From Solitalea longa (GTDB lineage Bacteria > Bacteroidota > Bacteroidia > Sphingobacteriales > Sphingobacteriaceae): 64,000 nucleotides of DNA. The DNA is taken from positions 80,766-144,765 of the forward strand of contig NZ_PQVF01000012.1 in assembly GCF_002920915.1 (NCBI RefSeq). The letters are read 5' to 3'. A program made the translations under genes and the position numbers. The notes under the pieces are model-generated. The model worked only from the letters and a program-made list of their open reading frames with translations, was not told where the DNA came from and ran no database searches. Shown here one piece after another: positions 31,985 to 50,900 of the stretch (position 1 is its first letter; every line of letters begins with the position of its first letter).

Positions 31985-33544
31985 ATGTGTATCTTCTCTC
32001 GCTCTTTTTTAAGGAGCAATGCTTATAAGCATCAACGATGGTTGGTGCTATTCTTCATAAGTTTTACCTGTTCCGTTTTTTGGTGCTCATTTGCCGAGGC
32101 AAAAAATAGCAGCAATCGGGCCATTGAAACTTACGTCTCTTTTGTTAACCTTCCAGATAGTGCTGATTTGGCAATTCAAAAAACAATCAATACCAAATCG
32201 GTGGCAGTGGGAAAAACGCTTACCTATTCTATCAGAATTAATAATAAAGGACCTGCTGACGCGGAAAATGTTGTGGTTACCGATACATTACCTAATGAAC
32301 TGGTTTATGCAAGTTCGAAAGTTAATATAGGTACAGTTGAAGTAAACGGTCAAACGGTTAAATGGATGGTAGGAACTTTGCCCAAAAAAACTATTCAGGG
32401 AATGCAGTTAACTGTTAAGGTGGTAAAAGCGGGAACCTTTAAAAATAAAGCGAAAATTACCTCAACAACAAAAACCATTTGTCAATGCAATGATAAGTCA
32501 ACGTCAACCGAAGTGGTGGCAAAAGATACTGCCGATGTAAGCATTGTTAAAACGGTTAATAAAAAAATGGTAACTGAAGGTGATACGCTCAGTTATTTTA
32601 TCACGGTAAAAAATGATGGTCCTTCGCCTGCTAATAATATACGGGTAAAGGACATTTTGCCCAATAACTTTTCATTCGAATTTTCATCAAATAATAAAGT
32701 AACCTTTGATACAGGCACGCATCAATTAGCCTGGGAGATTGATCAGTTGCAAGTAGGGGAGAGCGCTTCGGTAGCAATAAAAGTTAAAGCCTTAAAAGAA
32801 GGAACAGCCACCAATACTGCCGTAATTACTTCTGATGCTTTTGATCCTGCTTTATGCAATAATGTATCAACCGCCGAAGATGTGGTGATTAATGCTAAAC
32901 CCAAAATTAAGAAGGCGGATGTAAGCATTACCAAATCGGCCGACAAACAATTTGTGCCTATTGATACGGAGTTTCATTATGCTTTTCTGATTGAAAACAA
33001 AGGACCTGACACAGCCAGGTTTGTGGTGCTGAAAGATACATTAAACGAGAAAACACAATATGTAAGCTATAAAGTTGATCAGGGATTGTTTATTTACGAT
33101 GCTTTCACCAATTCATTCACACTGAGCGTTGATGAGCTTGCCCCTGGCCGGCAGTTGGTTTTATCGGTTAAAGTAAAAGGTATTAATACCGGATCGGTAA
33201 TTAACAAAGCTACTGTGGAGTCGGAAACAGAAGATCCAGTTTTGGTGAATAATAACAGCGTTTATATCAATAAAATTGTTGGTTTAAAGGTTCCCAATGT
33301 ATTCACTCCTAATGGCGACAATCAAAATGATACTTTCCAGATCAGAGGTCTTGATTTGTGGTCATACAATGAGTTGAGAGTGATGAACCGCTGGGGCAAT
33401 AGTGTGTATGAGACAACTAATTATGCCAATGATTGGGATGGTGACCATTTGGCGCCTGGTACATATTATTATGTGCTAACGGTGAAAAATGAAATGGTTG
33501 ATCCGCAATGTATTACTGGTTGGGTCGCAATTCTAAGAAAGTAG
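31985..33544 (+). CDS. DUF11-repeat surface protein with T9SS type B (CHU_C) sorting domain
   Basis: A 519-residue exported protein. The N-terminus has a long signal peptide (hydrophobic RWLVLFFISFTCSVFWCSFAEA, cleavage near residue 39). Three DUF11 domains follow (about 52-160, 172-295 and 305-425), each beginning like ADLAIQKTINTKSVAVGKTL or ADVSIVKTVNKKMVTEGDTL and containing GPADAENVVVTDTLP. The last 84 residues (436-519) are the gliding-associated C-terminal domain: VPNVFTPNGDNQNDTFQIRG, then NRWGNSVYE and NDWDG, the type B T9SS signal. Type B cargo stays bound to the outer surface or is released with the help of SprF-like partners, and such a gene follows 500 bp downstream. Confidence 0.9.
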   Translation: MCIFSRSFLRSNAYKHQRWLVLFFISFTCSVFWCSFAEAKNSSNRAIETYVSFVNLPDSADLAIQKTINTKSVAVGKTLTYSIRINNKGPADAENVVVTDTLPNELVYASSKVNIGTVEVNGQTVKWMVGTLPKKTIQGMQLTVKVVKAGTFKNKAKITSTTKTICQCNDKSTSTEVVAKDTADVSIVKTVNKKMVTEGDTLSYFITVKNDGPSPANNIRVKDILPNNFSFEFSSNNKVTFDTGTHQLAWEIDQLQVGESASVAIKVKALKEGTATNTAVITSDAFDPALCNNVSTAEDVVINAKPKIKKADVSITKSADKQFVPIDTEFHYAFLIENKGPDTARFVVLKDTLNEKTQYVSYKVDQGLFIYDAFTNSFTLSVDELAPGRQLVLSVKVKGINTGSVINKATVESETEDPVLVNNNSVYINKIVGLKVPNVFTPNGDNQNDTFQIRGLDLWSYNELRVMNRWGNSVYETTNYANDWDGDHLAPGTYYYVLTVKNEMVDPQCITGWVAILRK

Positions 33545-34043: not shown

Positions 34044-35018
34044 ATGATTCTAAAAAGGTTATTGCTGTTGTTTTTTTTATTCCTTGCGATGAATGCGCAT
34101 GCCCAGCAGGATGCACAATTTTCGCAATACATGTTCAACGGTATTTATATAAACCCAGCTTATGCTGGATATAAAGAGCAGTTAAACATGCATTCTTTCT
34201 ACCGCAGTCAATGGACCGGAGGATTGGAGGGACATCCCGAGACTTTTAGCTTCGCACTTGATGCCATTGCTAACAATGGAAATGTAGGCCTTGCTTTTAC
34301 TTTGTTAAAGGATAAATTAGGTGCTGAAAGTACTTTGGCAGCCTATGCCAACTATGCTTACCGATTAAAAGTAGGAGATGTTTCGCGTCTGGCCTTTGGT
34401 TTAGGAATAGGTATCGCTCAATATGGCCTTGATGGAACTATGTTAGAGTCGTATTCTCCCAATGATCCCAGCGTTCCTAATATGATGCAATCGGTAATTG
34501 TACCCGATATCAGGGCCGGTATCTATTATTCGTCCGACAGGTTTTACGCAGGGGCTTCGGCCGATAATTTAATCGGTAAGTACTTAAATTACACTAAAGA
34601 TCCCTCGATATTAATTCCTACCAAAATGCCCCACTTTTATTTAACGGCAGGTGGTTTAATTCCGGTCTCAAAACAAGTCTTGTTAAAGCCTTCCTTCATG
34701 CTTAAAAATGAATCACACGGACCGGCCAATTTGGATATAAACACTTTTGTATTATTTAATGAGCGGTTATGGTTAGGAATGTCTTACAGAACAGGTATTG
34801 GGGTTTGGAACAAGCAAAATTTACAAGATAATCTTTCAACGACCGACGCATTGGTTGGTTTAGCTGAAATATATGTAACAGACAGATTGAGAATTGGTTA
34901 TGCCTACGATTTTTCGTTTACAAAGTTTAAGGATTATAACTATGGTACCCATGAAATTTCTATGGGATATTCGTTCATACCAAAGAAAATTCGAATGCTA
35001 AATCCAAGGTATTTTTAA
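34044..35018 (+). CDS. PorP/SprF family type IX secretion outer-membrane protein
   Basis: A 324-residue outer-membrane beta-barrel protein. The signal peptide (LLLLFFLFLAMNAHAQ) is followed by the family hallmark QQDAQFSQYMFNGIYINPAYAGYKEQLN, then barrel strands with GNVGLAFTLLKDKLGAESTLAAYANYAYRLKVGDVSRLAFGLGIGIAQY and the C-terminal DRLRIGYAYDFSFTKFKDYNYGTHEISMGYSF. SprF of Flavobacterium johnsoniae is needed for secretion of the SprB adhesin, and PorP of Porphyromonas is a T9SS component; single copies next to type B cargo are usually SprF-like and cargo-specific. It stands 39 bp upstream of the PorE-like gene. Confidence 0.93.
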   Translation: MILKRLLLLFFLFLAMNAHAQQDAQFSQYMFNGIYINPAYAGYKEQLNMHSFYRSQWTGGLEGHPETFSFALDAIANNGNVGLAFTLLKDKLGAESTLAAYANYAYRLKVGDVSRLAFGLGIGIAQYGLDGTMLESYSPNDPSVPNMMQSVIVPDIRAGIYYSSDRFYAGASADNLIGKYLNYTKDPSILIPTKMPHFYLTAGGLIPVSKQVLLKPSFMLKNESHGPANLDINTFVLFNERLWLGMSYRTGIGVWNKQNLQDNLSTTDALVGLAEIYVTDRLRIGYAYDFSFTKFKDYNYGTHEISMGYSFIPKKIRMLNPRYF

Positions 35019-35057: not shown

Positions 35058-37046
35058 ATGATAAGACGTTTTACATACCTTATAATCAGCTTTTTGCTAC
35101 TTGGTTGCCAATATGTGTTTGCACAGGCTACATTGCGTGAAGCTCAACGTCAGGCCGAATTACTGAATTTCAATGATGCCATCAATTTATATGAAAAGGC
35201 ATTTGACAAGCGGGAAACTTTAATGGCGGCACGAGGGCTTGCCGATAGTTACCGCCAGCTGCATAATTACCCATTTGCCGAAAGCTGGTACGCTAAAGTG
35301 GTTCAAATGGAAGGCCATGAGCCCATGGATCTTTTCTATTATGCCGAAGCTTTACAAAACAATTCTAAATATCATGAAAGCAAGCAATGGTACCTGAAAT
35401 ATAAAGAAGAAGCTGGTGAGGAGGTTCTATCCAACCTAGAACAATTGATCAGTGCCTGCGATTCAGCAGGCTACCGCATGCAGCATCCGGTAAATTTTGT
35501 TTTCAAATTAGATACTTCCCTCAATACACTGCAAAGTGATTGGGGGGCTTTCCCCTATAAAAATGGTATTGTTTTTACTTCCGACAGGATTATAAATCAA
35601 AAGGCAAGCAAAAAACCGATTCTTTTTTTTGATGCCAACAATACCTTAAAAAAAGATGTGTCGGGCTGGACTGGTTTACCTTATCTCAAGTTATTTTATT
35701 CAGAAAGAAAAGGAGAAAAATGGGATGAGCCACAGGTGTTTTCAAATACCCTCAACGGTAGTTTCCATAACGGCCCGGCAAGCTTTTCAAAAGATGGGAA
35801 AGAGGTATATTTTACGCGTACCAGGGAAATAAAAAATAGCAAGGCTTATACACATGACAAACGAAAGCAAAAGGATTATACGATAAGGCTTGAAGTGTAC
35901 AGCTCTAAATTGGATGAACAGACCAGTAACTGGTCCGAACCTCAGCCTTTTGCCTATAATGCCCCTTTGGATTATTCGGTAAGTGATGCCTGTTTAAGTG
36001 CTGATAGCAAATACCTCTATTTTGCATCGGATATGCCGGGCGGAGAAGGTATGTCGGACCTGTACTACTGCAAACGCCAAAGTGATGGATCATGGGGAAA
36101 ACCAGTTAATTTGAAAGGATTGAATACGGCAGGAACCGAACGCTTTCCAAGTTTCGATAATGAGAATAATCTGTATTTCGCAAGCACAGGGTTTGGAGGT
36201 ATGGGAGGCCTCGACATTTACCGTGCTGGTTATTTAGATGAAAATAAATGGGCAAAAGCCCAAAATATAGGCTATCCGGTTAACACTCCACAAGATGATT
36301 TTAATATAGTGTTTGCAGCTGATGGTAAAAGTGGCTATTTATCAAGCAACAGAGACGGAGGGAAAGGGATGGATGATATTTACCAGTTCACAAAAAAAGA
36401 ACTAATGTTTAAACTGGAAGGAACTGTGGTGAATAAGAAAACGGGTGTTCCTTTAAACAATGCTATTGTAACACTTTACAATAAAAAAACGAATACAAAT
36501 ATAAAGGCTCCAACTGATGCTAAAGGTGCTTTTGCATTTAATCTGGAAGAAAACAGTGAATATACTGTTACCGCCGAAAAAACCAATTTTATTACCTCTC
36601 GCAAGGACAGTTTGAGTACAATAGGGTACACCGAATCAAAAACCTTGCACGCCAAACTATCATTAGGTATTGATTCGATTGAGTTGTATAAAGGAATCAG
36701 GTTGGATAATATTTACTACGACTTTAATAAATGGAACATCCGTGCCGATGCTGGCCCTGAACTGGATAAGTTAGTTCAGGTGATGACTGATAATCCAACA
36801 ATGATCATTGAATTGAGTTCGCATACTGATTCGCGGGGAGCTGATAGCTATAACCTGCAATTGAGTCAGAAAAGAGCGGAAGCTGCGGTGAACTATATTA
36901 TTTCAAAAGGAATTGATACTAAACGTATAACAGCCAAAGGCTATGGCGAAACCAAACCTGTAAACAATTGCGGTAATGGAACCAACTGTTCTGAAACAGA
37001 GTTTCAGCTAAACCGCAGAACAGAGTTTGCAATCTTAAGGTATTAG
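35058..37046 (+). CDS. PorE-like OmpA-family lipoprotein (TPR, beta-propeller, CRD, OmpA)
   Basis: A 662-residue protein with the same domain order as PorE of Porphyromonas gingivalis: signal peptide with lipobox LLGC (Cys17), TPR-like helices (24-120), a PD40-type beta-propeller (about 150-445, repeats such as CLSADSKYLYFASDMPGGEGMSDLYYCKR and SFDNENNLYFASTGFGGMGGLDIYRA), a carboxypeptidase regulatory-like domain (450-535) and a C-terminal OmpA domain (545-662). The OmpA part keeps the peptidoglycan-binding Asp591 (SHTDSRG) and Arg606. Such proteins tie the T9SS outer-membrane ring to the cell wall. Whether this is the housekeeping PorE or an accessory paralogue dedicated to the neighbouring type B cargo cannot be told here; paired with SprF, the latter is likely. 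A terminator follows. Confidence 0.9.
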   Translation: MIRRFTYLIISFLLLGCQYVFAQATLREAQRQAELLNFNDAINLYEKAFDKRETLMAARGLADSYRQLHNYPFAESWYAKVVQMEGHEPMDLFYYAEALQNNSKYHESKQWYLKYKEEAGEEVLSNLEQLISACDSAGYRMQHPVNFVFKLDTSLNTLQSDWGAFPYKNGIVFTSDRIINQKASKKPILFFDANNTLKKDVSGWTGLPYLKLFYSERKGEKWDEPQVFSNTLNGSFHNGPASFSKDGKEVYFTRTREIKNSKAYTHDKRKQKDYTIRLEVYSSKLDEQTSNWSEPQPFAYNAPLDYSVSDACLSADSKYLYFASDMPGGEGMSDLYYCKRQSDGSWGKPVNLKGLNTAGTERFPSFDNENNLYFASTGFGGMGGLDIYRAGYLDENKWAKAQNIGYPVNTPQDDFNIVFAADGKSGYLSSNRDGGKGMDDIYQFTKKELMFKLEGTVVNKKTGVPLNNAIVTLYNKKTNTNIKAPTDAKGAFAFNLEENSEYTVTAEKTNFITSRKDSLSTIGYTESKTLHAKLSLGIDSIELYKGIRLDNIYYDFNKWNIRADAGPELDKLVQVMTDNPTMIIELSSHTDSRGADSYNLQLSQKRAEAAVNYIISKGIDTKRITAKGYGETKPVNNCGNGTNCSETEFQLNRRTEFAILRY

Positions 37047-37074
37047 ATTCAATACAAATAATAGCGTTTATAAG

Positions 37075-37106
37075 TCCCTGGATATTAATTAATCCGGGGA
37101 TTTTTT
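37075..37106 (+). terminator. Rho-independent terminator of the sprF/porE-like operon
   Basis: TCCCTGGAT (37075-37083) pairs with ATCCGGGGA (37092-37100) with one G-U pair around an 8-nt loop, followed by TTTTTT (37101-37106), 28 bp after the stop. Confidence 0.75.
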
Positions 37107-37151
37107 GTATATAATATATTTGAGATTCATCCTTGAAACAGCAAATGTTTT

Positions 37152-37197
37152 CCGTTAACTTAATAGTAAGTCATTGTATTGATCGTTAACGGTTTTT
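37152..37197 (+). promoter_or_regulatory. Leader inverted repeat ending in a T-run
   Basis: CCGTTAAC (37152-37159) and GTTAACGG (37185-37192) are perfect 8-bp arms separated by 25 nt and followed by TTTTT (37193-37197), about 54 bp before the start of the first Calx-beta gene. It could be an attenuator-like hairpin or an operator. Only the geometry supports it. Confidence 0.3.
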
Positions 37198-37250
37198 CCA
37201 TCTGCTTGGCGTTGCTTTCCCTAAACATTTCAAATTACTTATATACTATT

Positions 37251-40115
37251 ATGAAAACATTTACATGCCTAATTAAACCCGTTTTAATTTTTATTCTACT
37301 ATTTACATCAATAGAAACCTATGCAAATAGTAAAAACGTCCAATCATCACTTCAGGTTGATCCCATTTGTGTAAGCATTGAAGGGGCAACGGTTATTGAG
37401 CCTGATGAAGGAAGCAGTACGGTAACACTTAATCTCACGTTGAACCGGATCTCTAACCAAGCCGTTAAGGTGCATTATTCCACCACTTCAAGAGCAATTG
37501 ATCCTTATTTTCCAGAAAATTATAATGCAACTGCTAAGTGGGACCTTGATTTTACCGGAGTTGGTGGATATGTAACTTTTTATCCTGGTGAGTTAAGCAA
37601 ACAAATAAGTGTGGTAGTAAAAGGAGATAAAATAGATGAAGACGACGAATTTTTCTATGTCCATTTAACCCATTCAAGTAACGCGGTATTATGTAACAGT
37701 GAAGTAGCGGTTTTAATTATTGATAATGATAATCCTCCTGTTTTAGCTGTGAACGATATGGCTGTTAAAGAGCAGGATGAAGGTCAGGTCCAAATGAAGT
37801 ATTATGTTAATTTATCCAGCCATAGCGGGAAGGAAATAAGTTTTGAATATTTCACCGAACAAGGTACAGCCAGGGCCGGTTCGGATTATATAGCAAAATC
37901 AGGCAAATTGATTATTCCTCCGGGACAAACCAGGGCCGAATTTGTAATACCTGTACTGGGAGATACCGAAATTGAACCAACGGAAAAATTTAAGGTAAAG
38001 ATTTTTAATGCTCAAAACGCCGTTCTATCAAAAAACGAACTGAATGCCACCATTTGGAATGACGATGGCACTTTACCGGCAATTAATATTACGGGCTCTG
38101 CAGAAGTGCAGGAGGATGCGGATAGTGTTGTTTTTTATATCACCTTAAGCAAACCCAGCACAGATACTGTAAAAGCAGATATTAAAACCAATTCAAATTC
38201 GGGTTATGGATTTGCGACACCTGATCTTGATTTTAATACGTTAGATCAACGCCTTGTTTTTTTACCCGGTGAAACCAGTAAAGCCGTTGCAGTTTATATT
38301 CTTGAAGATACTTTAAGTGAGCCTAACGAGGTATTCAATGTCTCTTTAACAAATTTCATTAATTCCGGACATGGACATTCAGTAAGAGAATGTAAAATAC
38401 TTGATAGTGAGTCTATAACGCTTATTCAGTCGCCGTTGATTGTGCAAAAAGCCGAAGATAATGGCAATGTCTTCATTAAGTTAAATTTATCAAGACCAGC
38501 GCCAGATACTGTAAGAGTTCAGTATGCTACGCAGGATAGTACCGCAATAGCAGGACAAGATTATATTTCTGAATCCGGAATAGTAACCTTTTTACCCGGT
38601 CAAACGGAACAATCCATTTCTGTAGCAGCTATCTTAAACACAGGTGCAGAAAGTACCGAATACTTTTTTGTCAATTACACAGCAGCAACAGGGGCGGTTT
38701 TAGCTAACAACAGAACTACTGTTGCTGTATATGACTTTTACGATAAACCATCTCTCTATACCGAAGTTGGAAAATTAAACGTAATAGAGGGAACAGGTGG
38801 TATTACAAATGTTGATGTTAAAATTTTGCTAAGCCATCCAACACATTTGCCTGTTCCTGTTTACCTATATGTGGGTGGAAGGCCTGGGATATATGGTCCT
38901 GATGCTGTGAATGGATCTGATTACGAACAAATTAAAGACACCATAACAATTCCTGCTGGAGATACCTCCATACTCTACACCGTTAAAGTTATAGCCGATA
39001 ATTTATATGAACCCGAAGAGGTGATTCAGTTAAATGTTGACCCGATAGGTGATGTAGCATTGCCTTCGGGAGGTATTGATTCTGATTTATATCTCTACAT
39101 TGAAAACGATGACAATCCTCCGTTAATTTATATTGATGATGTTTCAATACCCGAAGGGAATGCGCCAACATATGTAAATTTTAAGGCAAGGCTCGATAAA
39201 CGAATAGCGACCATTGTAAGAGCTAATATAACGCCAGTTGTTAACGGAATAGAGCAGAGCCCGTTTGAAATATCAGCTGAAAACTTCACATCAGGGAATA
39301 GTATTGATTCACTAATAGAGTTTTCTTACCTGGTCAATGGAGATTTAATTATAGAACCGGATGAAACAATTGTGTTCAAACTTTCAAATCCCTATGAAAG
39401 CACTATAGGAGACAGTACCGGAATTATCACTTTATTAAATGACGATGGCAGTTCGTTAAAGGTAACAGTTAATGTACCCGACAGTATTGTTGCTAATGAA
39501 GGCGAGGACTTTTATTTAACTTTTTTTCTTACAAATCCGCTAGATGCAAGCTTTAATTATTCTACCGAAAATGGAACTGCTATAAATGGTTTAGATTATC
39601 AAGCTGATAATTCTACTGCTAATTTCTTCTCGAATACTCTTCCTGATTTTTCTTATAGTTATGGCTTTGGTACTTATACAGATGATCTAATTGAAGGAAC
39701 TGAATATTACTATATCAACCTCTCAACCCCTTCTAATCCAAATTTAATTTTAACAAATAATCGGGTAAAAATAGTGTTGATGGACAAAACTGAACCTTCG
39801 GCTAGATCAGGCTCATCCTCTATATCCTCCGTAGATGAAAAGAATAGCAGATCCAAGATCACCAATGTGTTCACCCCCAATGGCGATGGAATTAATGACC
39901 TGTTTGTAATTCCTAATCTCGAAACTTCCGTAAATGAATTGCAGGTCTTTAACAAACAAGGAATGCAGGTTTATAAACGATCAAATTATCAAAATGATTG
40001 GGATGGTCAGGGCTGCGCCGATGGCACCTATTTTTACTCCTTAAAACTCCAAAAGGCTTCAGGAGAATATGAAGTTAAAAAAGGTTATATCACTCTTATA
40101 AGAAGTCTAAAGTAA
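37251..40115 (+). CDS. Calx-beta repeat surface protein 1 with T9SS type B sorting domain
   Basis: A 954-residue secreted protein from the ATG at 37251 (MKTFTCLIKPVLIFILLFTSIETYANS is a good signal peptide; the frame is open further back to 37179 but that stretch is not needed). About seven Calx-beta domains follow, the first with the Cys pair described in the findings (DPICVSIEGATVIEPDEG and NAVLCNSEVAV). Each has the GxxY/DY calcium-binding turn (for example TARAGSDYIAKSGKL) and ends in a DDD or DND signature. The C-terminal 84 residues form the type B sorting domain (ITNVFTPNGDGINDLFVIPN ... NDWDGQGCADGTYFYSL). Calx-beta domains probably form a calcium-stiffened rod on the cell surface. 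First of three tandem paralogues. Confidence 0.9.
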   Translation: MKTFTCLIKPVLIFILLFTSIETYANSKNVQSSLQVDPICVSIEGATVIEPDEGSSTVTLNLTLNRISNQAVKVHYSTTSRAIDPYFPENYNATAKWDLDFTGVGGYVTFYPGELSKQISVVVKGDKIDEDDEFFYVHLTHSSNAVLCNSEVAVLIIDNDNPPVLAVNDMAVKEQDEGQVQMKYYVNLSSHSGKEISFEYFTEQGTARAGSDYIAKSGKLIIPPGQTRAEFVIPVLGDTEIEPTEKFKVKIFNAQNAVLSKNELNATIWNDDGTLPAINITGSAEVQEDADSVVFYITLSKPSTDTVKADIKTNSNSGYGFATPDLDFNTLDQRLVFLPGETSKAVAVYILEDTLSEPNEVFNVSLTNFINSGHGHSVRECKILDSESITLIQSPLIVQKAEDNGNVFIKLNLSRPAPDTVRVQYATQDSTAIAGQDYISESGIVTFLPGQTEQSISVAAILNTGAESTEYFFVNYTAATGAVLANNRTTVAVYDFYDKPSLYTEVGKLNVIEGTGGITNVDVKILLSHPTHLPVPVYLYVGGRPGIYGPDAVNGSDYEQIKDTITIPAGDTSILYTVKVIADNLYEPEEVIQLNVDPIGDVALPSGGIDSDLYLYIENDDNPPLIYIDDVSIPEGNAPTYVNFKARLDKRIATIVRANITPVVNGIEQSPFEISAENFTSGNSIDSLIEFSYLVNGDLIIEPDETIVFKLSNPYESTIGDSTGIITLLNDDGSSLKVTVNVPDSIVANEGEDFYLTFFLTNPLDASFNYSTENGTAINGLDYQADNSTANFFSNTLPDFSYSYGFGTYTDDLIEGTEYYYINLSTPSNPNLILTNNRVKIVLMDKTEPSARSGSSSISSVDEKNSRSKITNVFTPNGDGINDLFVIPNLETSVNELQVFNKQGMQVYKRSNYQNDWDGQGCADGTYFYSLKLQKASGEYEVKKGYITLIRSLK

Positions 40116-40890
40116 GCTAAACTTTAACTCTTTATACTATGAATGCGCTCTATTTAAAAGTACTCGTTGGTCTCTTTTTTATGCTAACGGGTACTATTTT
40201 TAATTGTTCAGCACAGCTTTCCTGTTTAACGGTAAACGATATTGCTGTAACTGAACCCGACAATGGAGGTGGCTCCGCCAGCTTTAAAATAAGCCTGAGT
40301 ACCCCCAGCACACAGGAAGTAACGGTGTATTACTCCACTTCAAATGGTACGGCCAGTTCGAGGAACGATTATACAGCTGCTTCGGGCTATTTGACCTTTC
40401 AACCAGGTGAAACCACTAAATTCCTTTTCTTATCCATTGCTGGAGATCTGCATGATGAGTATGACGAAACATTTTATCTTAACCTCAGCAATGCAACAAA
40501 TGCCACTATTTGCGACAATAAAGGTACTGCTACTATTTTGGATAATGATGCTCCTCCAACAATGACTATTAGTAACATGGCAGTTCGGGAACAAGATTCT
40601 GGAACGGTGAAGGTGAAATTTTTGATTCAGTTAAGCAATTGGAGCTATAAGGACATTACTTTTGATTATGCCACCATCAACGGTACAGCTACAGCAGGCT
40701 CCGATTACCAGGCATCCAGCGGAACATTTACCATACCTGCAGCCCATATCAGATCCGAAATCGTAGTAACCTCTTATGGCGATACCACGAAAGAAAGTAA
40801 TGAAACTTTCACCGTCAATTATTCAAACCCAGTGAATGTTCAATTGACGAACACTTCTTCTTCAGCTACCATTTCAAATGATGATTTGCA
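39850..40890 (+). repeat. About 1-kb direct repeat, copy 1 (tail 1 - spacer - head 2)
   Basis: This segment covers the end of Calx-beta gene 1, the 23-bp spacer (GCTAAACTTTAACTCTTTAT and next bases) and the first 250 codons of gene 2. It recurs with an offset of exactly 3,542 bp (39864 against 43406, and ATG 40139 against 43681) and only scattered substitutions, mostly at silent sites. Confidence 0.85.
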
Positions 40891-43657
40891 GTACCCGGTA
40901 ATCTCAATCAAACCATATCAGCAAAATGTATCTGAGTCGACAGACAGCGTTGTTTTTGATCTCAAACTAACCCGCAAAGGTTCAATTCCTTTAAGTGTGA
41001 AAGTATCTACGCCTTATTCAAGTTTGTCTTCTGAAGTTGAAGCCAAGCCCAATATTGATTTTTTTCCACTGGATACAACCATTACTTTTTTACCCGGAGA
41101 ACTTGTAAAGCCAGTAAAACTGGCCATTATAGATAATGCCGTGGATAATATTGATAAACGGATTTTGGTGTGGCTTTCTAGTCCTCAAAATGTGATACTT
41201 GATGGATATCAAACTTCTGAAGTTTGGATTAAAGATGATGAAGAAGCAGTTACTATTAGTGTACCTGACAGTATTATTGTTTCAGAGGGCGGGGCAGCTG
41301 TGTTAAATTTTACTCTTTCAAGTCCGGTAAATGTAACTTTTGATTATTCTACTGAAGATGGAACCGCTGTGAATGGTTTGGATTATTCTGCTAAGCAAGG
41401 GCCCCTTACATTTTATTGGTATTCACCAACCACTTATCCTCTTTATTTTTTTACAACCAACGATGAAGTTTTTGACGGGAAGGAATATTTCTATATCAAT
41501 CTCTCAACTCCCTCTGATCCCAATGTAATTTTAACTAATAATCGAATAAAAGTAATTGTTAATGAAGCCACGCGGCCTACGGCCTCTTTTACAGAGCCAA
41601 GTGTAATTGAAGGTGGAGCAGGGGACACTACCGATTTAATTATTCAGGTAAAGCTGAATTTTCCTTCACCCAATAAGTCTAAGTTTATCTATCGAGTTTT
41701 TGGTGATATAGAAGATCATTATGATTTTACTGCAGGACCTATTGCGAGACCAGGGGTCGAGTATATATCAAAGATTGATAGTGTGGTTTTTATGCCTGGA
41801 GATACGGTGAAAAATATTATTGTTAAGGTGCTGGGTGATGATATGAAAGATGGGAGTGATATTGAGAACGTTTTAATAAAATACATTAGTGTAGAAAATG
41901 TTATTGTACCCGGTTATTATCCCGTAAACTCTCCTTTCATAGCCTTAGGGAAAATTATAGATGATGACGATCTGCCCACCATCAGTATAGACAGCATTAG
42001 TGTTGTGGAAGGAAATAGTGGCACTACCAATGCTGTTTTTACCCTTAATTTAAATCATCCCAATGAAGATCAGGTATATGTTGATGCACGATTAATTGAT
42101 GTTTCAGCCAGTAAAGCATCCGATTATAATGACTTGAATGTTTCATATGTTTCTTTTGAAAAAGAAGCAACCAGTAGCCAATTAATAGTTCAAATTAAAG
42201 GAGACATCCTCGCTGAACTCAATGAAACTTTTAAAATTGTTCTTTCCAATCCGCAGAATGGAATTTTATCAACCGATTCTATAGGATTAGGTACCATTAT
42301 AAATGATGATGCTGTTTCATTGCCAATTATCGGTGTTGAAACAGAATCAGTAAATGAATCGACTGGAATATTGAATTTTAAGGTAAAGTTAAATGAACCA
42401 GCCCAACAGTCTATCAGTGTTAATTATACTACAGCCGATTCAACAGCATTGGCAACACACGATTATACTGCTGCATCCGGAGTATTAAATTTTGCAATTG
42501 GTGATAGTGTGAAAACAATATCCATAACACTTATTGATGATGATCAATGGGAGGTTGATAATGTTTTTAATTTGAAACTGAGTAACCCAATAAATGCAGC
42601 TTTTGGAACTCGTCAAGCAATGGGAACAATTTTAAACGATGATGAACCACGATATAATTCTACTGTTATAATCTCTGATGGGTTTCTTTATTCTAATGGT
42701 ACTTACAATTTTATAGTCAAGCTAGTGTTTCCTAACAACCACACAGTTACAGTTGATTATTCAACTGCTGATGGAACAGCGGCTGCTGGTAGCGATTATT
42801 CACCTGCTTCCGGAACATTAACTTTTTTGCCTGGTCAAACAGAGAAAACCATATCAATCACTCCGGTAGCTCCTACAAGCGGCGAAGGCGATGAATATTT
42901 TTATGTGAATTTAAGCAATCCTGTATATGGAGTTTTTGTTGATAGTGTTGGAATAGCAGCTATAAGAAATAATAGTTTCCTCAAACCTTACCTAAGTTTT
43001 AATAATTTATGGTATATGGTCAATGAAGGAGATGAGAGCGATACTACTGATATGGTTATGACACTTTCATTATCTGATCCTTCTTCATTACCGGTAATTA
43101 TGGAATATACTACTGTCTTTAATAGAGACGATTTTCGAGCTTTCTTTGATGACGATTATATTCCATCTATAAATGAACGGATAACTTTTGCGCCCGGAGA
43201 GACCTCAAAAAATATAATTATTAAAGTTATTGGAGATAATTCCGAAGAAATAGATGAGGAATTTAAATTGTATCCAACATTAGTAATAAACGCTACATTG
43301 AGTTTCGATTATGTAAATGGTCAAATCTTAAACGATGACGGCAGCTCATTAAGGGCATCCTCCCTTTATTCCGTGGAAAACTCAAAATCTTCAGCTAAAA
43401 TCACCAACGTGTTCACCCCCAACGGTGATGGTATCAATGACCTGTTTGTAATTCCTAATCTCGAAACCTCCGTAAATGAATTGCTGGTCTTTAACAAACA
43501 AGGAATGCAGGTTTATAAACGATCGAATTATCAAAATGATTGGGATGGACAAGGCTGTACCGATGGCACCTATTTCTATTCCTTAAAATTGCAAAAGGCT
43601 TCAGGCGAATATGAAGTTAAAAAAGGTTATATCACTCTTATAAGAAGTCGAAGGTAA
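40139..43657 (+). CDS. Calx-beta repeat surface protein 2 with T9SS type B sorting domain
   Basis: A 1,172-residue secreted protein: signal peptide (LKVLVGLFFMLTGTIFNCSAQ), about nine Calx-beta domains and a type B sorting domain (1088-1172). The first two domains (to residue about 250) are almost identical to those of the next gene, while the tail is almost identical to that of the gene before (two differences seen in about 84 residues). The middle, from VISIKPYQQNVSES on, is related to the next gene but much diverged. Domain 1 keeps the Cys pair (LSCLTVNDIAV and NATICDNKG). Separated by 23 bp on either side from its paralogues, it is transcribed as part of the same run. Adhesin or gliding-related surface filament is the likely role. 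Confidence 0.9.
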   Translation: MNALYLKVLVGLFFMLTGTIFNCSAQLSCLTVNDIAVTEPDNGGGSASFKISLSTPSTQEVTVYYSTSNGTASSRNDYTAASGYLTFQPGETTKFLFLSIAGDLHDEYDETFYLNLSNATNATICDNKGTATILDNDAPPTMTISNMAVREQDSGTVKVKFLIQLSNWSYKDITFDYATINGTATAGSDYQASSGTFTIPAAHIRSEIVVTSYGDTTKESNETFTVNYSNPVNVQLTNTSSSATISNDDLQYPVISIKPYQQNVSESTDSVVFDLKLTRKGSIPLSVKVSTPYSSLSSEVEAKPNIDFFPLDTTITFLPGELVKPVKLAIIDNAVDNIDKRILVWLSSPQNVILDGYQTSEVWIKDDEEAVTISVPDSIIVSEGGAAVLNFTLSSPVNVTFDYSTEDGTAVNGLDYSAKQGPLTFYWYSPTTYPLYFFTTNDEVFDGKEYFYINLSTPSDPNVILTNNRIKVIVNEATRPTASFTEPSVIEGGAGDTTDLIIQVKLNFPSPNKSKFIYRVFGDIEDHYDFTAGPIARPGVEYISKIDSVVFMPGDTVKNIIVKVLGDDMKDGSDIENVLIKYISVENVIVPGYYPVNSPFIALGKIIDDDDLPTISIDSISVVEGNSGTTNAVFTLNLNHPNEDQVYVDARLIDVSASKASDYNDLNVSYVSFEKEATSSQLIVQIKGDILAELNETFKIVLSNPQNGILSTDSIGLGTIINDDAVSLPIIGVETESVNESTGILNFKVKLNEPAQQSISVNYTTADSTALATHDYTAASGVLNFAIGDSVKTISITLIDDDQWEVDNVFNLKLSNPINAAFGTRQAMGTILNDDEPRYNSTVIISDGFLYSNGTYNFIVKLVFPNNHTVTVDYSTADGTAAAGSDYSPASGTLTFLPGQTEKTISITPVAPTSGEGDEYFYVNLSNPVYGVFVDSVGIAAIRNNSFLKPYLSFNNLWYMVNEGDESDTTDMVMTLSLSDPSSLPVIMEYTTVFNRDDFRAFFDDDYIPSINERITFAPGETSKNIIIKVIGDNSEEIDEEFKLYPTLVINATLSFDYVNGQILNDDGSSLRASSLYSVENSKSSAKITNVFTPNGDGINDLFVIPNLETSVNELLVFNKQGMQVYKRSNYQNDWDGQGCTDGTYFYSLKLQKASGEYEVKKGYITLIRSRR

Positions 43658-44432
43658 GCTAAATTTTAACTCTTTATACTATGAACGCGTTATCTGCAAA
43701 AGTGCTAATTGGCATCTTTTTTATGCTAACGGGCACTGTTTTTAACTGTTCAGCACAGCTTTCCTGTTTAACAGTAAACGATATTGCTGTAACTGAACCC
43801 GACAATGGAGGTGGCTACGCCAGTTTTAAAATAAGCCTGAGTTCCCCAAGTACGCAAGAAGTAAAGGTGTATTACTCTACCTCAAATGGTACGGCAAGTT
43901 CGAGGAATGATTATACTGCCAATTCGGGTTATTTGACCTTTCAGCCTGGCGAAACCGTTAAATTCCTTTTCATAGCGATTAACGGAGATCTATATGATGA
44001 GTATGACGAGACCTTTTATCTTAACCTAAGCAATGCAACAAATGCCACAATTTGCGACAATAAGGGTACTGCCACCATATTAGATAGTGATGCCCCGCCC
44101 ACCATGACCATCAGTAATATGGCTGTTCGGGAACAAGATTCTGGAACGGTGAAGGTGAAATTTTTGATTCAGTTAAGCAACTGGAGCTATAAGGATATTA
44201 CTTTTGATTATGCCACCATCAACGGTACTGCTACAGCGGGCTCCGATTACCAGGCGGCTAGCGGAACTTTTACCATACCTGCTGCCCATATTCGGGCCGA
44301 AATAGTGGTCACCTCCTACGGCGACACCACCAAAGAAGAAAATGAAACCTTCATCGTTAACTATTCAAATCCGGTAAATGTTCAACTGACCAATACTTCT
44401 TCTTCAGCCACCATTTGGAATGACGATCTGGA
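43392..44432 (+). repeat. About 1-kb direct repeat, copy 2 (tail 2 - spacer - head 3)
   Basis: Second copy of the junction segment, covering the end of Calx-beta gene 2, the spacer (GCTAAATTTTAACTCTTTAT and next bases; one change from copy 1) and the first 250 codons of gene 3. It starts near the codons for the type B sorting domain and fades after the second Calx-beta domain. Confidence 0.85.
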
Positions 44433-47400
44433 GTTTCCGGTAGTTTTGATTTCTCCTTATCATCAAACTGTTTTGGAGTCGGTTGATAGCGTTGCTATGA
44501 ATTTAAGATTAACCAGAAAGGGAAATATCCCATTAATTGTTAGGTTAATGTCTTTTTATGGAAATCAACCCTGGATAGTGGATGAAGCAATTCCGGATGT
44601 TGATTACGTTGCTCTTGATTCTCTTGTAACTTTTCTTCCGGGAGAACTTTCGAAACAGATCAAGTTTAAGATCATTGACAACGCGATCGATAATCATGAT
44701 AAGTTTATTCATATTGTGATGCTTGAGCCTCAAAATGGAATATTAGATGGACTTATTGATGCTGGTATTGATATTATAGATGATGAGAATAACGTAATGA
44801 TCAATGTTCCGGATAGTATCGTAGTGTCCGAAGACTGGAACAGTTTTATTCTACAGCTATCAAGTTCGACCCCTATTTCAACTAATTTAAGTTACAGTAC
44901 CGAAGACGGCAGTGCAGTTGCAGGATCAGACTATGATCAAAAGAGTGGAAATTTGACCTTCAATAATTTTGATAAGTTCTTCTTTGATCTAAATGTGATC
45001 AAAACGGATGACTTTGAACAAACCGAATACTTCTATGTTAATTTTTCTACACCAACCGATCCAAATATTTCATTATCACGGAATCGAACCAAGATCATTA
45101 TAAAAGATACTACAAAGCCTACCGCTATTTTTAGCGCGCCCAGTGTAATTGAAGGTAACAAAGGTGATACTACTGATGTCAACTTTCAGGTGAAATTGAA
45201 TTTCCCATCGCCTAAAAAAGTAAAAATTGAGTATGCTATGGATAGTTATGTGACCGAAAATGTTGGAGGAGGTATCATAGCTGATTCTAACATCGATTTT
45301 ATTCTTAAGAGTGACAGCGTGGTTTTTATGCCCGGCGACACAGCTAAAGTAATAACAGTTCGAGTTATTGGAGATGATACGGATGAAAATAATGAACAGA
45401 TCTTTGTTTTAGCCAGAAACGAAGAAAATGTAATACTAAATAGAAATACTGGAGACCCTTACTGGGGAGATGTCGCAAGAGGAAATATTATTGATGATGA
45501 TGATACCCCATCAATAAGTATAAGTGATACGACCATAATTGAAGGGGATGATGGAGTGAAAATGGCTTATTTTAGAATTTCATTGAGTAACCCGAGTCAG
45601 TGGGGGGTGTTTTTTAAAGCCAGGCTTGAGGATCTATCAACTGCAAAAAGCAAAGATTATAGAGATACCTTAAATTATGATAATAGAGGGTATATGTATG
45701 TTGGTCTTAGCATTCCCCCTTACAGATTATTACCTATCCCTATAATTGGTGATACACTACCAGAGATCAATGAACGATTTAAAATTCTTATTTCTGAGAT
45801 TCAAAATGCTATTGTTACCGACAGTATTGCGATCTGTACAATAATAGACAATGATACGGCTCCAAATGAGGTAATTGGATTAGAAACGCAATCGGCAAAA
45901 GAATCTGCCGGTATTTTAAATGTTACTGTTTTATTAAATGAACCTGCCTCACAGCCAATTAGTGTTGATTATTCCACTTCAGATGGCTATATAAGCGGTC
46001 AGGCCAATTACGTGCCTGTTTCAGGGACGCTAAACTTTGCTATAGGTGATAGTGTTAAATATGTACCGGTTACCCTTTTAAATGACACTATAATTGAAGG
46101 CGATGAATTCTTTAATTTTAATTTAAGTAATGCTTTAAATGCACAAATAAGTACCCCTCAAACGAGAGTATGGGTTTTAGAGGATGCAGACGATATACTA
46201 TTTTTTGATTCAGGAATTCAATTTGCCCGGGATCCTTACTATGCTAGTGACACATTAATGGTCTTCAAGGTCAACTTATTACAACCTAATAATCATACTG
46301 TAAAAGTTGATTATACAACCGTTCCCGGAACCGCTACTGAAGGGAGTGATTATAGTTCTACTTCAGGAGTATTAACCTTTTTACCAGGTGAAACAATTAA
46401 GGAAATAGCTGTCAAATATGATCCAGCATCGGCGGATGAGGGAGATGAATATTTTTACCTGAAGTTAAGCAACCCAATATTTGGTCATTTTGTAAGAGAC
46501 TACTTTCTTGATGAAGACAGCATTAAAAGAGTCTTTATTTATGATCACCTCACTCAAGGCCGTCGAAGTGTATCGATGCGAAGAGATAATTATATCTGGA
46601 TACATGAAGGCAACAGTGGAGATACAACATTGATTTCCGTTCCATTATATCTTAATGGCGGTCCTTCTATTCTACCAGTAACCGTTGAATTTAAAATCAT
46701 CTATAATAATGACTATCCTGGAGCATTTAACAATGATCTTGTTTTTGATGATGGTCCTAGGGTAACTTTTGCTCCGGGCGAAACGCAAAAGGATATGGTT
46801 TTTAAAGTAGTTGGAGATAATGATTTTGAATTTGATGAGTACTTTACTGCTTACCCCGTAAACGGGATCAATGGTAGTCCACCGGAAGGGGATATAAATG
46901 GTTATATTTTAAATGATGATCCTCCATTAGAAGTAACTATTGGTAACGATGTTACAATAACAGAAGGAGATGATGGTATTAAGAAACTTGTTTTTGAAGT
47001 ATATACTAAGAATTTGCCAAACTGGGGGATAGGAAATCCTATTCCAGCTGCCGTTGGTTTTGAAGTAATTGATGTGACCACCTCTAAGCAGGTTGATTAT
47101 TTTATTTATGGTGGAGGTGTATTTGGTGAGCTTTCCGATACTACTTTCATAATAATAGATGTGCGGGGAGATACTATTAATGAAGGTGACGAATCATTTA
47201 TTGTTAGACTGCTGCCTTCATATTACTTTATTGCAGGAGAACGGTTTGAAGCTATTGGTACCATCCTCAACGACGATGGTCCAGTTTTTTTAACCTCTTC
47301 AGCAGTGTCCACAGAAAACCTAAAAACTCAACCTAAAATAGCCAATGTTTTTACCCCAAATGGCGATGGCATCAACGATTTGTTTGTTATTGATGGAGTG

Positions 47401-47595
47401 ACAAATGCCCAAAATGAACTTATTGTTTTTAATAAAGAGGGTACTCAGTTCTTTAAACGCAGCAATTATCAAAACGATTGGGATGGTCAGGGCTGCGCGG
47501 ATGGTACTTATTATTATATCCTCAAACTAAAAGACCAGGATGGAGGGTTTACAACTAAGAAGGGATATATAACTTTAATAAGAGGGTTCAGATAG
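43681..47595 (+). CDS. Calx-beta repeat surface protein 3 with T9SS type B sorting domain
   Basis: A 1,304-residue secreted protein with the same plan: signal peptide (AKVLIGIFFMLTGTVFNCSAQ), about ten Calx-beta domains (the first with the Cys pair LSCLTVNDIAV and NATICDNKG) and a type B sorting domain (1220-1304, IANVFTPNGDGINDLFVIDG). The head is near identical to gene 2. The sorting domain, however, differs (NELIVFNKEGTQFFKRSN, KDQDGGFTTKKGYI) and resembles that of the 2,430-residue protein more than those of genes 1 and 2. The middle domains are diverged from gene 2 and include extra acidic, calcium-binding-like segments. A hairpin follows the stop. Confidence 0.9.
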   Translation: MNALSAKVLIGIFFMLTGTVFNCSAQLSCLTVNDIAVTEPDNGGGYASFKISLSSPSTQEVKVYYSTSNGTASSRNDYTANSGYLTFQPGETVKFLFIAINGDLYDEYDETFYLNLSNATNATICDNKGTATILDSDAPPTMTISNMAVREQDSGTVKVKFLIQLSNWSYKDITFDYATINGTATAGSDYQAASGTFTIPAAHIRAEIVVTSYGDTTKEENETFIVNYSNPVNVQLTNTSSSATIWNDDLEFPVVLISPYHQTVLESVDSVAMNLRLTRKGNIPLIVRLMSFYGNQPWIVDEAIPDVDYVALDSLVTFLPGELSKQIKFKIIDNAIDNHDKFIHIVMLEPQNGILDGLIDAGIDIIDDENNVMINVPDSIVVSEDWNSFILQLSSSTPISTNLSYSTEDGSAVAGSDYDQKSGNLTFNNFDKFFFDLNVIKTDDFEQTEYFYVNFSTPTDPNISLSRNRTKIIIKDTTKPTAIFSAPSVIEGNKGDTTDVNFQVKLNFPSPKKVKIEYAMDSYVTENVGGGIIADSNIDFILKSDSVVFMPGDTAKVITVRVIGDDTDENNEQIFVLARNEENVILNRNTGDPYWGDVARGNIIDDDDTPSISISDTTIIEGDDGVKMAYFRISLSNPSQWGVFFKARLEDLSTAKSKDYRDTLNYDNRGYMYVGLSIPPYRLLPIPIIGDTLPEINERFKILISEIQNAIVTDSIAICTIIDNDTAPNEVIGLETQSAKESAGILNVTVLLNEPASQPISVDYSTSDGYISGQANYVPVSGTLNFAIGDSVKYVPVTLLNDTIIEGDEFFNFNLSNALNAQISTPQTRVWVLEDADDILFFDSGIQFARDPYYASDTLMVFKVNLLQPNNHTVKVDYTTVPGTATEGSDYSSTSGVLTFLPGETIKEIAVKYDPASADEGDEYFYLKLSNPIFGHFVRDYFLDEDSIKRVFIYDHLTQGRRSVSMRRDNYIWIHEGNSGDTTLISVPLYLNGGPSILPVTVEFKIIYNNDYPGAFNNDLVFDDGPRVTFAPGETQKDMVFKVVGDNDFEFDEYFTAYPVNGINGSPPEGDINGYILNDDPPLEVTIGNDVTITEGDDGIKKLVFEVYTKNLPNWGIGNPIPAAVGFEVIDVTTSKQVDYFIYGGGVFGELSDTTFIIIDVRGDTINEGDESFIVRLLPSYYFIAGERFEAIGTILNDDGPVFLTSSAVSTENLKTQPKIANVFTPNGDGINDLFVIDGVTNAQNELIVFNKEGTQFFKRSNYQNDWDGQGCADGTYYYILKLKDQDGGFTTKKGYITLIRGFR

Positions 47596-47624
47596 TTAAA
47601 AAAATCAAACCTTACGATTGTTTT

Positions 47625-47660
47625 TAAACGGGGGCTTCATGAAAATGAACTCCCGTTTTT
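47625..47660 (+). terminator. Probable terminator of the Calx-beta gene run
   Basis: An imperfect stem, AAACGGGGGCTTCAT and ATGAACTCCCGTTT (one bulge and one wobble), with a short AAA loop is followed by TTGTTTTTA. It lies about 30 bp after the stop at 47595. Confidence 0.65.
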
Positions 47661-47911: not shown

Positions 47912-50900
47912 ATGAAAGATTCTACCAATGTTTTAAAAAATGATCAATTCAAGGGATTGGCTCATTCTTTTACGAAAACTTTTGAAAGCATTATTGGAGC
48001 AATAAAAAACAGTTCTTTTTCTTTAGCGATAAAATTGTTTTCATTGTCCTTATTGCTGTTTCTTTTAAGTTCGGCTGATGATTACGATGGAGCTCAAACC
48101 GTTAAACCGCAAAAAGGTTTAATAATTATGAGCGCACAAGCCGCTCCTCCCTGCGTTAGTGTATTATCCGCTTCCTGTAAGGAAGCCAATAGTGGTTACT
48201 CTACTATGGACTTTAAGGTAAACCTTGATGGTCCGTGTAAAGAGGAAATAACGGTTGAATACTATACAGGCAATGGAACGGCCCTTGTGAAAGAAGATTA
48301 TAACGCCACTTCTGGTACAATAACTTTTGCCCCTGGTGAAGTTTCAAAAATAGTGAAGGTGCTTTTTAAAGGTGATTATTACGATGAGGAGAATGAGCAG
48401 TTTTTCATTTATCTGAAGAATGCTAAAAATGCAACCATTTGTGAAAGCAAAGCGGCTGGAACAATCATAGATGACGATCCTTTCCCTACATTACGCGGAG
48501 CTGATATGTCGGTTGGCGAAAAAAATGACGGTATTGTAAACCTTAAGTTTTACTTCAATTTTAAAACCTGCAGCCATAAAGAAACCCGTGTGGATTATTA
48601 TACCTATGATGGCACCGCAACTGCAGGAGAAGATTATCAGGAAACTAAAGGCACATTAATCATTCCTGCTGAACAAACAAAATTTGAAATAGTAGTTCCA
48701 GTTTACGGCGATACTAAGGTTGAACCTAATGAAACCTTTTTCATCAAATTATTGAATCCTGATGGTTTGATCTTAAATGATGATGTTTTTCAGGCAACGA
48801 TTTTAAATGATGATAAGGAATCAGCTATCCCCGCATTATCGATCAGTAATTCAACAGTTAGTGAGGCTGATGGAACGGCTTCATTTACAGTTAGTTTGAG
48901 TTCAGCAGCAGCACAGGCTGTAACCGTTGATTATGCAACTGCTGATGTAACGGCCACTGCGGGATCAGATTATACCGCTGCTTCGGGTTCCTTAACCTTT
49001 GCACCTGGTGAAACCTCTAAAATCATAGATGTAGCTATTACAGATGATACAGAGGATGAATCGGATGAAACCTTTAATGTTAATTTATCCAATGTATCGG
49101 CTACTGCCACAATAAGTGACGGCCAAGGTGTTGGAACGATCCAGGATAATGATGAACCTCCAGTAACTCCTGAACTAACAATTAGTAGTTCAACGGTTGG
49201 CGAAAGTGAAGGCACAGCAGTCTTTAATGTTAATTTGAACGTTGCTTCCAGTGAAACCATAACCGTTGATTATGCTACGGCAGATGGCAGTGCCAATTCA
49301 GGAAGTGACTTTTCTGCCACCGGAAGCGGAACACTAACTTTTGCTCCTGGGGAAATATCAAAAACCATTATTATTGATATTCTTAATGATACTGAAGAGG
49401 AAGGTGATGAGCAGTATTATGTAAATCTGTTCAATGTAACAAATGCTACAATAATAAATGGTCAAGGATTGGGAACCATTGTTGATGATGACCAGCCAGT
49501 TATTTTGCCGGGTGTGCAAATCTCAGGTGGTGTTTTCAATGAAGCTGTAGGCTCTGCCGAAATAACCATCTATTTATCACAGGCAGGTACTGAATCTATA
49601 TCGGTGGATTTTAATACAGCCGATGGTACTGCAACAGCCCCCAACGACTATACCGCTAATTCAGGAACAGTAACTTTTGCCCCAGGCGAAACCTCGAAAG
49701 TAATTAACGTATCGATTGCAAATGATCAGATCGATGAAGAAGATGAAACTTTCCGGGTTGTTTTATCGAATGTAGTTAATGCTGATCTTTTAGATGCTGA
49801 CGCTACTTTTTCAATCTTAGATGACGACGGTCTTCCAACAGTAAGCGTATTGAACGCTCAGGCAAATGAAGGTGACGGCACAATAACAGTTACAATTCAG
49901 CTTAATGGCGAAAGTTCACAAGATGTAAGTGTTGATTACGCCACTGCCAATTCTTCGGCAGTTGCTGGTCAGGATTATACCGCTACCTCAGGAACGGTTA
50001 CTTTTCCTGCGGGATCAAGTAATTCAACACAAACATTTACTGTTGCAATTACCGACGATAATGAAGATGAAACCAACGAATCATTTTTGGTGAATTTAAG
50101 TAATGCAGTTAATGCAGATATTGCTAATGCACAGGGCGAAGAGACCATAATTGATAATGATGAAACGCCTCCTGCAATTTCAATCAGCAATGTAACTGTA
50201 AACGAAGGAAATTCAGGTACGGTGGATGCAGTGTTTACGGTGTCTCTTGATAAAGCTGCAACAGGGTCAGTTACGGTTGATTGGGCAACTCAGGATAATA
50301 CAGCCGCTTCACCTGCTGACTATGTCTCGGGAAGTGGAACACTAACCTTTGCTGTCGGTGAAACGTCAAAAACCCTTACGGTAACCGTAAACGGAGATGA
50401 AACGGTTGAAAACGACGAATCGTTCCTGGTTAATTTAACCAATGCTACCGGCGGGGCCACCATAGCCGATGCACAAGGAGTGGGAGGTATCACCAATGAT
50501 GATGAGACTCCTCCGGCGTTTACAATTGATGATATAACAGTTGCTGAAGGAAATTCAGGTACTGTTAATGCTGTGTTTACTGTTTCACTGAGCAAGGTAG
50601 CCGAAGGAACCACCACCGTTGATTGGTCAACACAGGATAACGGTGCAACTTCGCCATCAGATTATGCTTCGGGTACAGGAACGCTCAGTTTTGCTGCTGG
50701 TGAAACATCAAAGACAATAACCATAGTTATAAATGGTGATGAAACCGTGGAAGGAAATGAAGCTTATCTGATTAATTTAAGTAATGCAACCGGTGGGGCA
50801 ACCATTGGTGATCCACAAGGATTTGGTGTGATTACTAATGATGATGAAACCTTGCCAGCATTAACTATCAACAATGTATCAGTAACTGAAGGTAATTCAG

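Follow-up and report, generated by a model that had tools for sequence, protein, structure and literature searches.

The stretch of DNA analyzed here, referred to as the window, comprises 64,000 nucleotides from Solitalea longa (NCBI RefSeq assembly GCF_002920915.1, contig NZ_PQVF01000012.1, positions 80,766 to 144,765 of the forward strand). It harbors four genes for Calx-beta proteins, g1 to g4, in a head-to-tail array at 37251-55204 (Table 1). The subject of this study are the junctions between the first three of these genes, where the tail of one gene, a short spacer and the head of the next form a block that occurs twice. A type B (CHU_C) sorting domain is present in 4/4 array proteins, matched by both PF13585 and TIGR04131 above the Pfam/NCBIfam cut-offs, and the starts of the array genes resemble, as judged by eye, putative signal peptides. 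The open reading frame (ORF) of g1 opens with a TTG at 37179 and has an ATG in frame at 37251.

Table 1. Array genes, junction blocks and 5' neighbors in the window (aa, amino acids; pS and pN, silent and non-silent differences per site of the respective kind).
Feature	Position	Strand	Remarks
g1	37251..40115	+	Calx-beta repeats (PF03160) and type B sorting domain (PF13585, TIGR04131), above cut-off
g2	40139..43657	+	Calx-beta repeats and type B sorting domain; body nearest g3, tail nearest g1
g3	43681..47595	+	Calx-beta repeats and type B sorting domain; g2-like head, tail not in common
g4	47912..55204	+	large Calx-beta gene with sorting domain; its orthologue D in genome G001 served as silent-site control
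J1 junction block	39864..40895	+	g1 tail, 23-bp spacer, g2 start (predicted signal peptide) and first Calx-beta domains
J2 junction block	43406..44437	+	g2 tail, 23-bp spacer, g3 head; copy of J1 at +3542
g1 tail, type B sorting domain	39864..40115	+	95% aa identity with g2 tail, pS 0.26
g2 tail, type B sorting domain	43406..43657	+	sequence comparison with g1 tail
g2 middle	40913..43324 (bounds of counted slice)	+	pS 0.69 and pN 0.37 with g3
519-aa DUF11 protein with type B sorting domain	31985..33544	+	PF01345, PF13585; next gene 5' of the PorP-like gene
PorP/SprF-family gene, likely sorting-domain shuttle	34044..35018	+	PF11751, E 2.2e-73
PorE-like gene	35058..37046	+	beta-propeller repeats (PF07676), carboxypeptidase-regulatory-like domain (PF13620), OmpA (PF00691)

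The junction between g1 and g2 (J1) recurs as the junction between g2 and g3 (J2). A preliminary description of the window had noted this as a tail-spacer-head segment of about 1 kb with an exact period of 3,542 bp, and the observation holds: without gaps and at an offset of +3542, 908/1032 positions are identical (88.0%). The period equals one gene (3,519 bp) plus the 23-bp spacer. The identity of over 90 percent that had been estimated by eye applies to the tail part (39864-40115; 233/252, 92.5%) and to the spacer (22/23), but not to the head, which is 88.2% identical over its first 203 codons (40139-40747; 537/609) and 78.4% thereafter (40748-40895; 116/148), nor to the block as a whole. 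Outside the block, 60-bp windows at the same offset are identical to 23-43% at 39000-39839 and to 27-48% at 40980-41459, until the homologous middles come back in register at 41460-41639 (58-70%). On the 5' side, the block begins where the sorting domain does; further upstream, g1 and g2 are little alike in register. At the 3' edge, g2 and g3 are still homologous. A weaker third copy of the tail closes g3 (63% over 300 nt).

The middles of g2 and g3 are collinear homologues with 33-60% identical amino acids in 60-codon windows (g2 codons 241-1051), in line with the earlier view that they are homologous but diverged. The middle of g1 is not specially close to that of g2 (24-55% in register, with 24-35% in 14/17 windows). 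The last Calx-beta stretch 5' of the g1 tail (residues 721-830, 39411-39740) matches g2 out of register from residue 364 onward (45% identity, score 227, vs a score of 168 for g3), and domain shuffling is possible for this stretch.

The ages of edges and middles were compared at silent sites using our own Nei-Gojobori-type count, in which pS denotes silent differences per silent site. The tails of g1 and g2 show 15.0 differences at 58.8 silent sites (pS 0.26, synonymous distance dS 0.31), the heads of g2 and g3 (codons 1-203) 51 at 145 (pS 0.35, dS 0.47) and the middles of g2 and g3 378 at 545, which at a pS of 0.69 is near saturation. Head and middle differ in silent divergence with p = 1.4e-13, and the value for tail vs head (p = 0.19) is consistent with one tract of one age. 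A synonymous change point lies at g2 codon 203 (about 40747); its likelihood ratio of 60.4 exceeds the maximum of 34.8 seen in 2,000 permutations, so the contrast is not due to chance. Along the profile, a step (Akaike information criterion 1141.1) fits better than a two-step model (1143.2) or a ramp (1144.9), and a single tract of about 0.9 kb is therefore probably sufficient in the window genome (G000). Windowed pS climbs outward from 0.24-0.27 in the tail over 0.30, 0.35, 0.42, 0.51 and 0.59 to 0.68, and a logistic slope gave p = 0.005 for the block, 0.036 for the head alone and 0.14 up to codon 220. Equal synonymous distances in edges and middles, named in the preliminary description as the outcome that would tell against its proposal, are not what this sliding-window comparison found.

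Likeness of the edges could also reflect purifying selection confined to the sorting domain and the head, with no recombination involved. Sorting domains are functionally constrained, and the tails of the orthologues g4 and D (the latter from G001, another genome of the genus) keep 90% of their amino acids. At silent sites, however, the same orthologous tails show 45.5 differences at 59.1 sites (pS 0.77), with a pS of 0.59 in the 300 codons preceding the tail and of 0.64 in the first 247 aligned codons. In comparison to this control, the g1/g2 tails are closer with p = 5e-8, and the tails of the A/B pair described below for genome G002 with p = 2e-18. This indicates that the silent sites of a sorting-domain tail are free of constraint and that the edges are younger than the middles. 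Since the likeness in the window extends to silent sites and to the spacer, and since purifying selection leaves the switch of genealogy within g2 unexplained (see below), this explanation was rejected on the basis of the silent-site control and is hardly credible. Furthermore, orthologues of the PorE-like and PorP-like genes in G000 and G001 have a dS of 2.1 and 1.7, respectively; if rates are alike, the common ancestors of the g1/g2 tails and of the g2/g3 heads are younger than the split of these two species.

Within g2, the genealogy switches. When g2 is scanned in windows of 110 residues, all 13 windows up to residue 1070 match g3 best, and the final two both match g1 best. A tail tree of eight genes joined g1 and g2 (99/99) and rejected a grouping of g2 with g3 (approximately unbiased (AU) test, p 0.004), and a head/body tree of the same number of genes (residues 26-320) joined g2 and g3 (100/100) and rejected g1 with g2 (AU p 0.002). 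As the slice used for the latter tree takes in the homogenized head, the middle is more cleanly judged from the sliding windows. Thus, by genealogy the body of g2 belongs with g3 and the tail of g2 with g1; among the 120 matches listed, only g2 itself and g3 are more than 36% identical to g2.

The same topology is predicted if the sorting domains of g1 and of an ancestral g2/g3 once underwent a single unequal crossover. This event would have duplicated a 3.5-kb unit, and the middle of g2 or g3 would afterwards have been replaced by a divergent version or have evolved into one. In this case, g2 would carry a g1-type tail, g3 the old tail, and the bodies of g2 and g3 would be sisters, as is seen. 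Such a crossover during array growth may well be how the array first arose, but it yields edges and middles of one age, in contrast to the observed silent divergence of 0.26-0.35 vs 0.69. A middle replaced from elsewhere is not indicated by foreign base composition, the GC content at third codon positions (GC3) being 0.253 in the pooled g2/g3 middles, 0.270 in the g1 middle and 0.267 in the g4 middle, although a donor of like composition would escape this comparison. Moreover, in G002 the contrast is found in the tail alone, without a common head. As the cause of the two like junctions, a single crossover is therefore rather unlikely.

This second case is located at the syntenic locus of a second species of the genus, which matches Solitalea canadensis and whose genome is present in one contig (G002). 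Here, the tandem genes A and B, encoding 983 and 980 aa, respectively, precede a large gene C. The tails of A and B show 1.0 difference at 56.3 silent sites (pS 0.02) and 0 residue differences, and from -278 to +39 around the stop (-278 being counted from the end of the stop codon) 1/317 bases differs. The 39 bases 3' of both stops are identical and the likeness ends there; upstream, identity tails off by about 350 bp from the stop. Outside the tail and the 40 codons preceding it, A and B are 40% identical in amino acids with a pS of 0.67 (387/581), and their heads are not homogenized, which makes this a case of the tail alone. The tails of g1 to g3 are 53-55% identical to those of A and B over 85 codons (pS 0.69-0.74). 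The tails are thus younger within genomes (0.26 for g1/g2, 0.02 for A/B) than between them (0.72-0.74), in a comparison of two species rather than strains in which orthology of g1/g2 with A/B is not established. The A/B pair adds an independent case at this locus that is younger and limited to the tail. At this locus (L030), the final base of an inverted repeat with 9-base arms lies at +39, where the homogenized tract ends.

Two explanations had been offered beforehand for the window, a tandem duplication whose middle evolved fast and gene conversion acting on the edges. The first is not supported, because the edges are younger at silent sites and because G002 repeats the pattern at the tail alone; the same two results, the silent-site contrast and the G002 case, favor the second.

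The window genome, assembled as a draft in 36 contigs, would leave room for an assembly artefact. Assemblers do not normally collapse copies differing at 12% of sites, as J1 and J2 do, and the G002 case sits in a one-contig genome, even though the A and B copies, being so nearly identical, could in principle be over-polished. An artefact is thus extremely improbable.

In GC3, the common heads (40139-40747 and 43681-44289) reach 0.40 vs 0.25 in the middles of g2 and g3 (p 1e-8). GC-biased conversion was not used as an explanation, since the head of gene A in G002 is also raised in GC3 without being homogenized and since tails are generally richer in GC3 than the preceding body (0.344 vs 0.298 as the average of all 66 sorting-domain genes).

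From these comparisons, J1 and J2 have probably been made alike by homologous recombination, most simply gene conversion, between neighboring junctions, well after the genes had been duplicated. Mechanistically, the array genes would duplicate and their middles diverge. Recombination between neighboring junctions would then copy the tail-spacer-head block in the window genome, or the tail in G002. In this way, the predicted export signal, the first adhesin domains and the predicted type IX sorting tail would stay alike between neighbors, and the middles would drift apart. Repeated unequal crossing over would leave an equal signature; that the process was gene conversion instead is our inference.

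Several points weigh against this reading. A smooth decay away from the junction, which would be expected of repeated conversions, is not favored over the step. The tail of g3 is not homogenized (pS 0.66-0.77 with g1 and g2), and neither is the tail of gene C with those of A and B (pS 0.68). Furthermore, the homogenized pairs and the pS threshold of the survey described below were chosen after the data had been seen. Finally, one genome per species was compared and the exchange itself was not observed.

The rarity of such tails was surveyed in the four genomes of the genus, using 66/68 sorting-domain matches; the two weakest, partial ones were omitted and no pair was dropped. Only 3/532 within-genome pairs have a tail pS below 0.45. 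Two of them are the A/B pair (tail 0.02, body 0.53, the body being the 200 codons before the tail, including part of the tract) and the g1/g2 pair (tail 0.26, body 0.67). The third, in G003, is equally conserved in tail (0.29) and body (0.33), which is the picture of a plain duplication. A young tail with a diverged body is found in g1/g2 and A/B only among the 22 tandem pairs of the genus (less than 15 kb apart, same strand).

Elsewhere, this combination was found in 0/15 tandem pairs from 91 loci and in 0/27 from 20 loci. These 42 pairs are a sample and not a census: they were picked by eye from the rows listed, at least two listed G038 pairs lie outside the stretches covered, and pairs with fewer than 50 (set of 15) or 45 (set of 27) aligned codons were dropped. 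The nearest one (G005, L194) has a tail pS of 0.51 and a body pS of 0.70; another (L232) has 0.39 and 0.49 with a tail pN of 0.33. Homogenized tails as a general habit of tandem sorting-domain genes were therefore rejected, with 0/42 sampled pairs elsewhere. In eight stretches with large Calx-beta loci, the sorting-domain profile matched only in L207 and L212, with one gene each and no tandem pair. Within the window genome, a tandem trio on contig C13 (L148) encodes proteins of about 1,390 aa each with sorting domains at 3869, 8159 and 12887; its tails have a pS of 0.59-0.74 and are not homogenized, so that a tandem layout alone is insufficient.

Conserved ends around a divergent middle would also permit an antigenic or phase-variable cassette system, in which middles are swapped between fixed ends. 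By sequence arithmetic, an exchange between J1 and J2 would add or remove exactly one gene equivalent with the frame kept. On the contrary, g1 to g3 are all complete ORFs with their own start and sorting domain, and the ORF of g4 is complete as well. No partial copies of a middle, as silent cassettes would be, were among the repeats listed for 36000-49000; this region is the one searched for silent donors, none being seen, and the rest of the genome was covered by a DNA search with the junction block. As J1 and J2 differ at 12% of positions, exchange is not frequent, and nothing was found that points to a host immune system. Such a cassette system is accordingly very improbable for this array.

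The question why copies should be favored leads to the type IX sorting machinery. In the window, the array is preceded by genes for the 519-aa DUF11 protein, the PorP/SprF-family protein and the PorE-like protein, in this order; the profile search of the PorE-like gene gave no match to TPR. In the type B/PorP-SprF/PorE systems of Flavobacterium johnsoniae and P. gingivalis, as far as described in the available parts of the sources, genes for a type B substrate, a PorP-like protein and a PorE-like protein likewise share a locus (PMC12618676, PMC9143113). Unlike in these, four Calx-beta genes follow the PorE-like gene in the window and, in the sequence covered, a shuttle gene directly downstream of them is lacking: none of g1 to g3 has a PorP/SprF-family gene directly 3' (the next gene being a Calx-beta gene), nor has g4 (the next gene being the giant gene at 55583). 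Gene C of G002, by contrast, has a PorP/SprF gene as its direct 3' neighbor. In L207, which belongs to another genus of the family (G004), a 2,006-aa Calx-beta sorting-domain gene is directly followed by PorP/SprF-family and PorE-like (OmpA, TPR) genes; this order matches that of F. johnsoniae, whereas the order in the window does not.

Type B substrates depend on a PorP/SprF shuttle, whose gene commonly, though not universally, lies directly 3' of the substrate gene. Substrates without a linked shuttle gene have been termed orphans, and in the accessible text of the same F. johnsoniae study three orphan substrates with tails more than 44% identical have one shuttle in common. The tail of Fjoh_3952 was accepted there by the shuttle belonging to a 68% identical tail, and shuttles of tails with 43% and 26% identity did not accept it (PMC12618676). 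The tails of g1 to g4 are 55-87% identical among themselves (last 100 residues), and the tail of the 519-aa protein is 39-42% identical to those of g1 to g3 and 36% to that of g4. This fits a common shuttle for g1 to g4 and speaks against the adjoining PorP-like one. Selection might favor the copies, if orphan type B substrates have to share a PorP/SprF-family shuttle and their tails have to be kept recognizable. This part of the reading is burdened by the absence of a PorP-family gene directly after g1 to g4, the nearest one adjoining the protein with the 36-42% identical tail. In the four genomes of the genus, PorP/SprF matches compare to sorting-domain matches as 8/22, 6/14, 12/18 (one of the 12 below cut-off) and 8/14.

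The closest precedent, judged from the accessible parts of the respective papers, is found in the adhesins babA/babB(/babC) and homA/homB of Helicobacter pylori, which have like ends, divergent middles and a concerted end segment. Here, the Bab proteins are described with near-identical ends, a divergent middle and gene conversion between loci (PMC4552749). For homA/homB, the 3' segment is younger within a single strain than among strains. This was interpreted as concerted evolution through gene conversion, and babA/babB were reported to behave likewise (PMC2795765). In contrast to bab and hom, the window genes stand in tandem, the tract covers the spacer and the head of the next gene, the conserved end consists of a type IX sorting domain, and a strain series is not part of the comparison. 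Three features are new in comparison to these systems: conversion acts on a sorting domain, the tract runs across the spacer into the following gene, and the pattern recurs at one locus in two species. The gingipains and hemagglutinins of P. gingivalis are likewise type IX secreted surface proteins diversified by recombination; the part of the source available reports domain rearrangement and allelic exchange between strains and mentions gene conversion (PMC5266723). There, adhesin modules are recombined and alleles exchanged, and a conserved C-terminal domain is described in that part without concerted evolution of this domain (PMC5266723). No description of concerted evolution of a type IX sorting domain was found in the open-licence papers searched, most subscription papers being outside this scope.

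These results suggest that a gene can have its secretion tag replaced by that of a neighbor while its functional part diverges. This would be a testable route by which adhesin families stay compatible with fewer PorP/SprF shuttles (14-22 sorting-domain vs 6-12 PorP/SprF matches in the four genomes). Going further, the junctions might tentatively be seen as a recombination platform, in which copying of tail, spacer and head keeps a locus-standard export head and sorting tag, a possibility we hold to be doubtful. If it were true, any new middle placed between the junctions would at once be secreted and anchored via the same shuttle, the sorting tag would be the unit of concerted evolution, and the array would provide slots for exchangeable adhesins in Bacteroidota.

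The copy number of the Calx-beta genes varies within the genus. Between the PorE-like gene and a giant gene whose product starts with MVK(K/R)FTLS, G000 has four such genes, G002 three (A, B and C), G001 one (the g4 orthologue) and G003 none. In G003, a 1,550-aa counterpart of the giant gene with Calx-beta domains of its own lies directly 3' of the PorE-like gene; judged by its place, the window gene at 55583 is probably the counterpart of that giant gene. This 1,550-aa gene (L132, 5164-9813, minus strand) unites Calx-beta, DUF11 and a sorting domain. In G001, the sequence flanking the PorE-like gene continues into a segment alignable with the g3-g4 spacer, from which we infer that g1 to g3 were gained or lost as a block at this point. 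A remnant of a lost sorting domain was sought in G001 upstream of the kept g3-g4 spacer by comparison with the gene ends, and shuffles gave p 0.076 for g3, 0.13 for g1, 0.53 for g2 and 0.002 for g4.

Giant reading frames occur at further places. In the window, an ORF 3' of g4 (55583-64000) reaches past the end of its contig. On contig C14 of the window genome (L210, 4366-9850), a giant ORF of 4,398 aa contains tandem repeats whose units of about 1,371 bp are 87-91% identical, and its counterpart in G001 (L208-L209) has the same unit with 91-95% identity.

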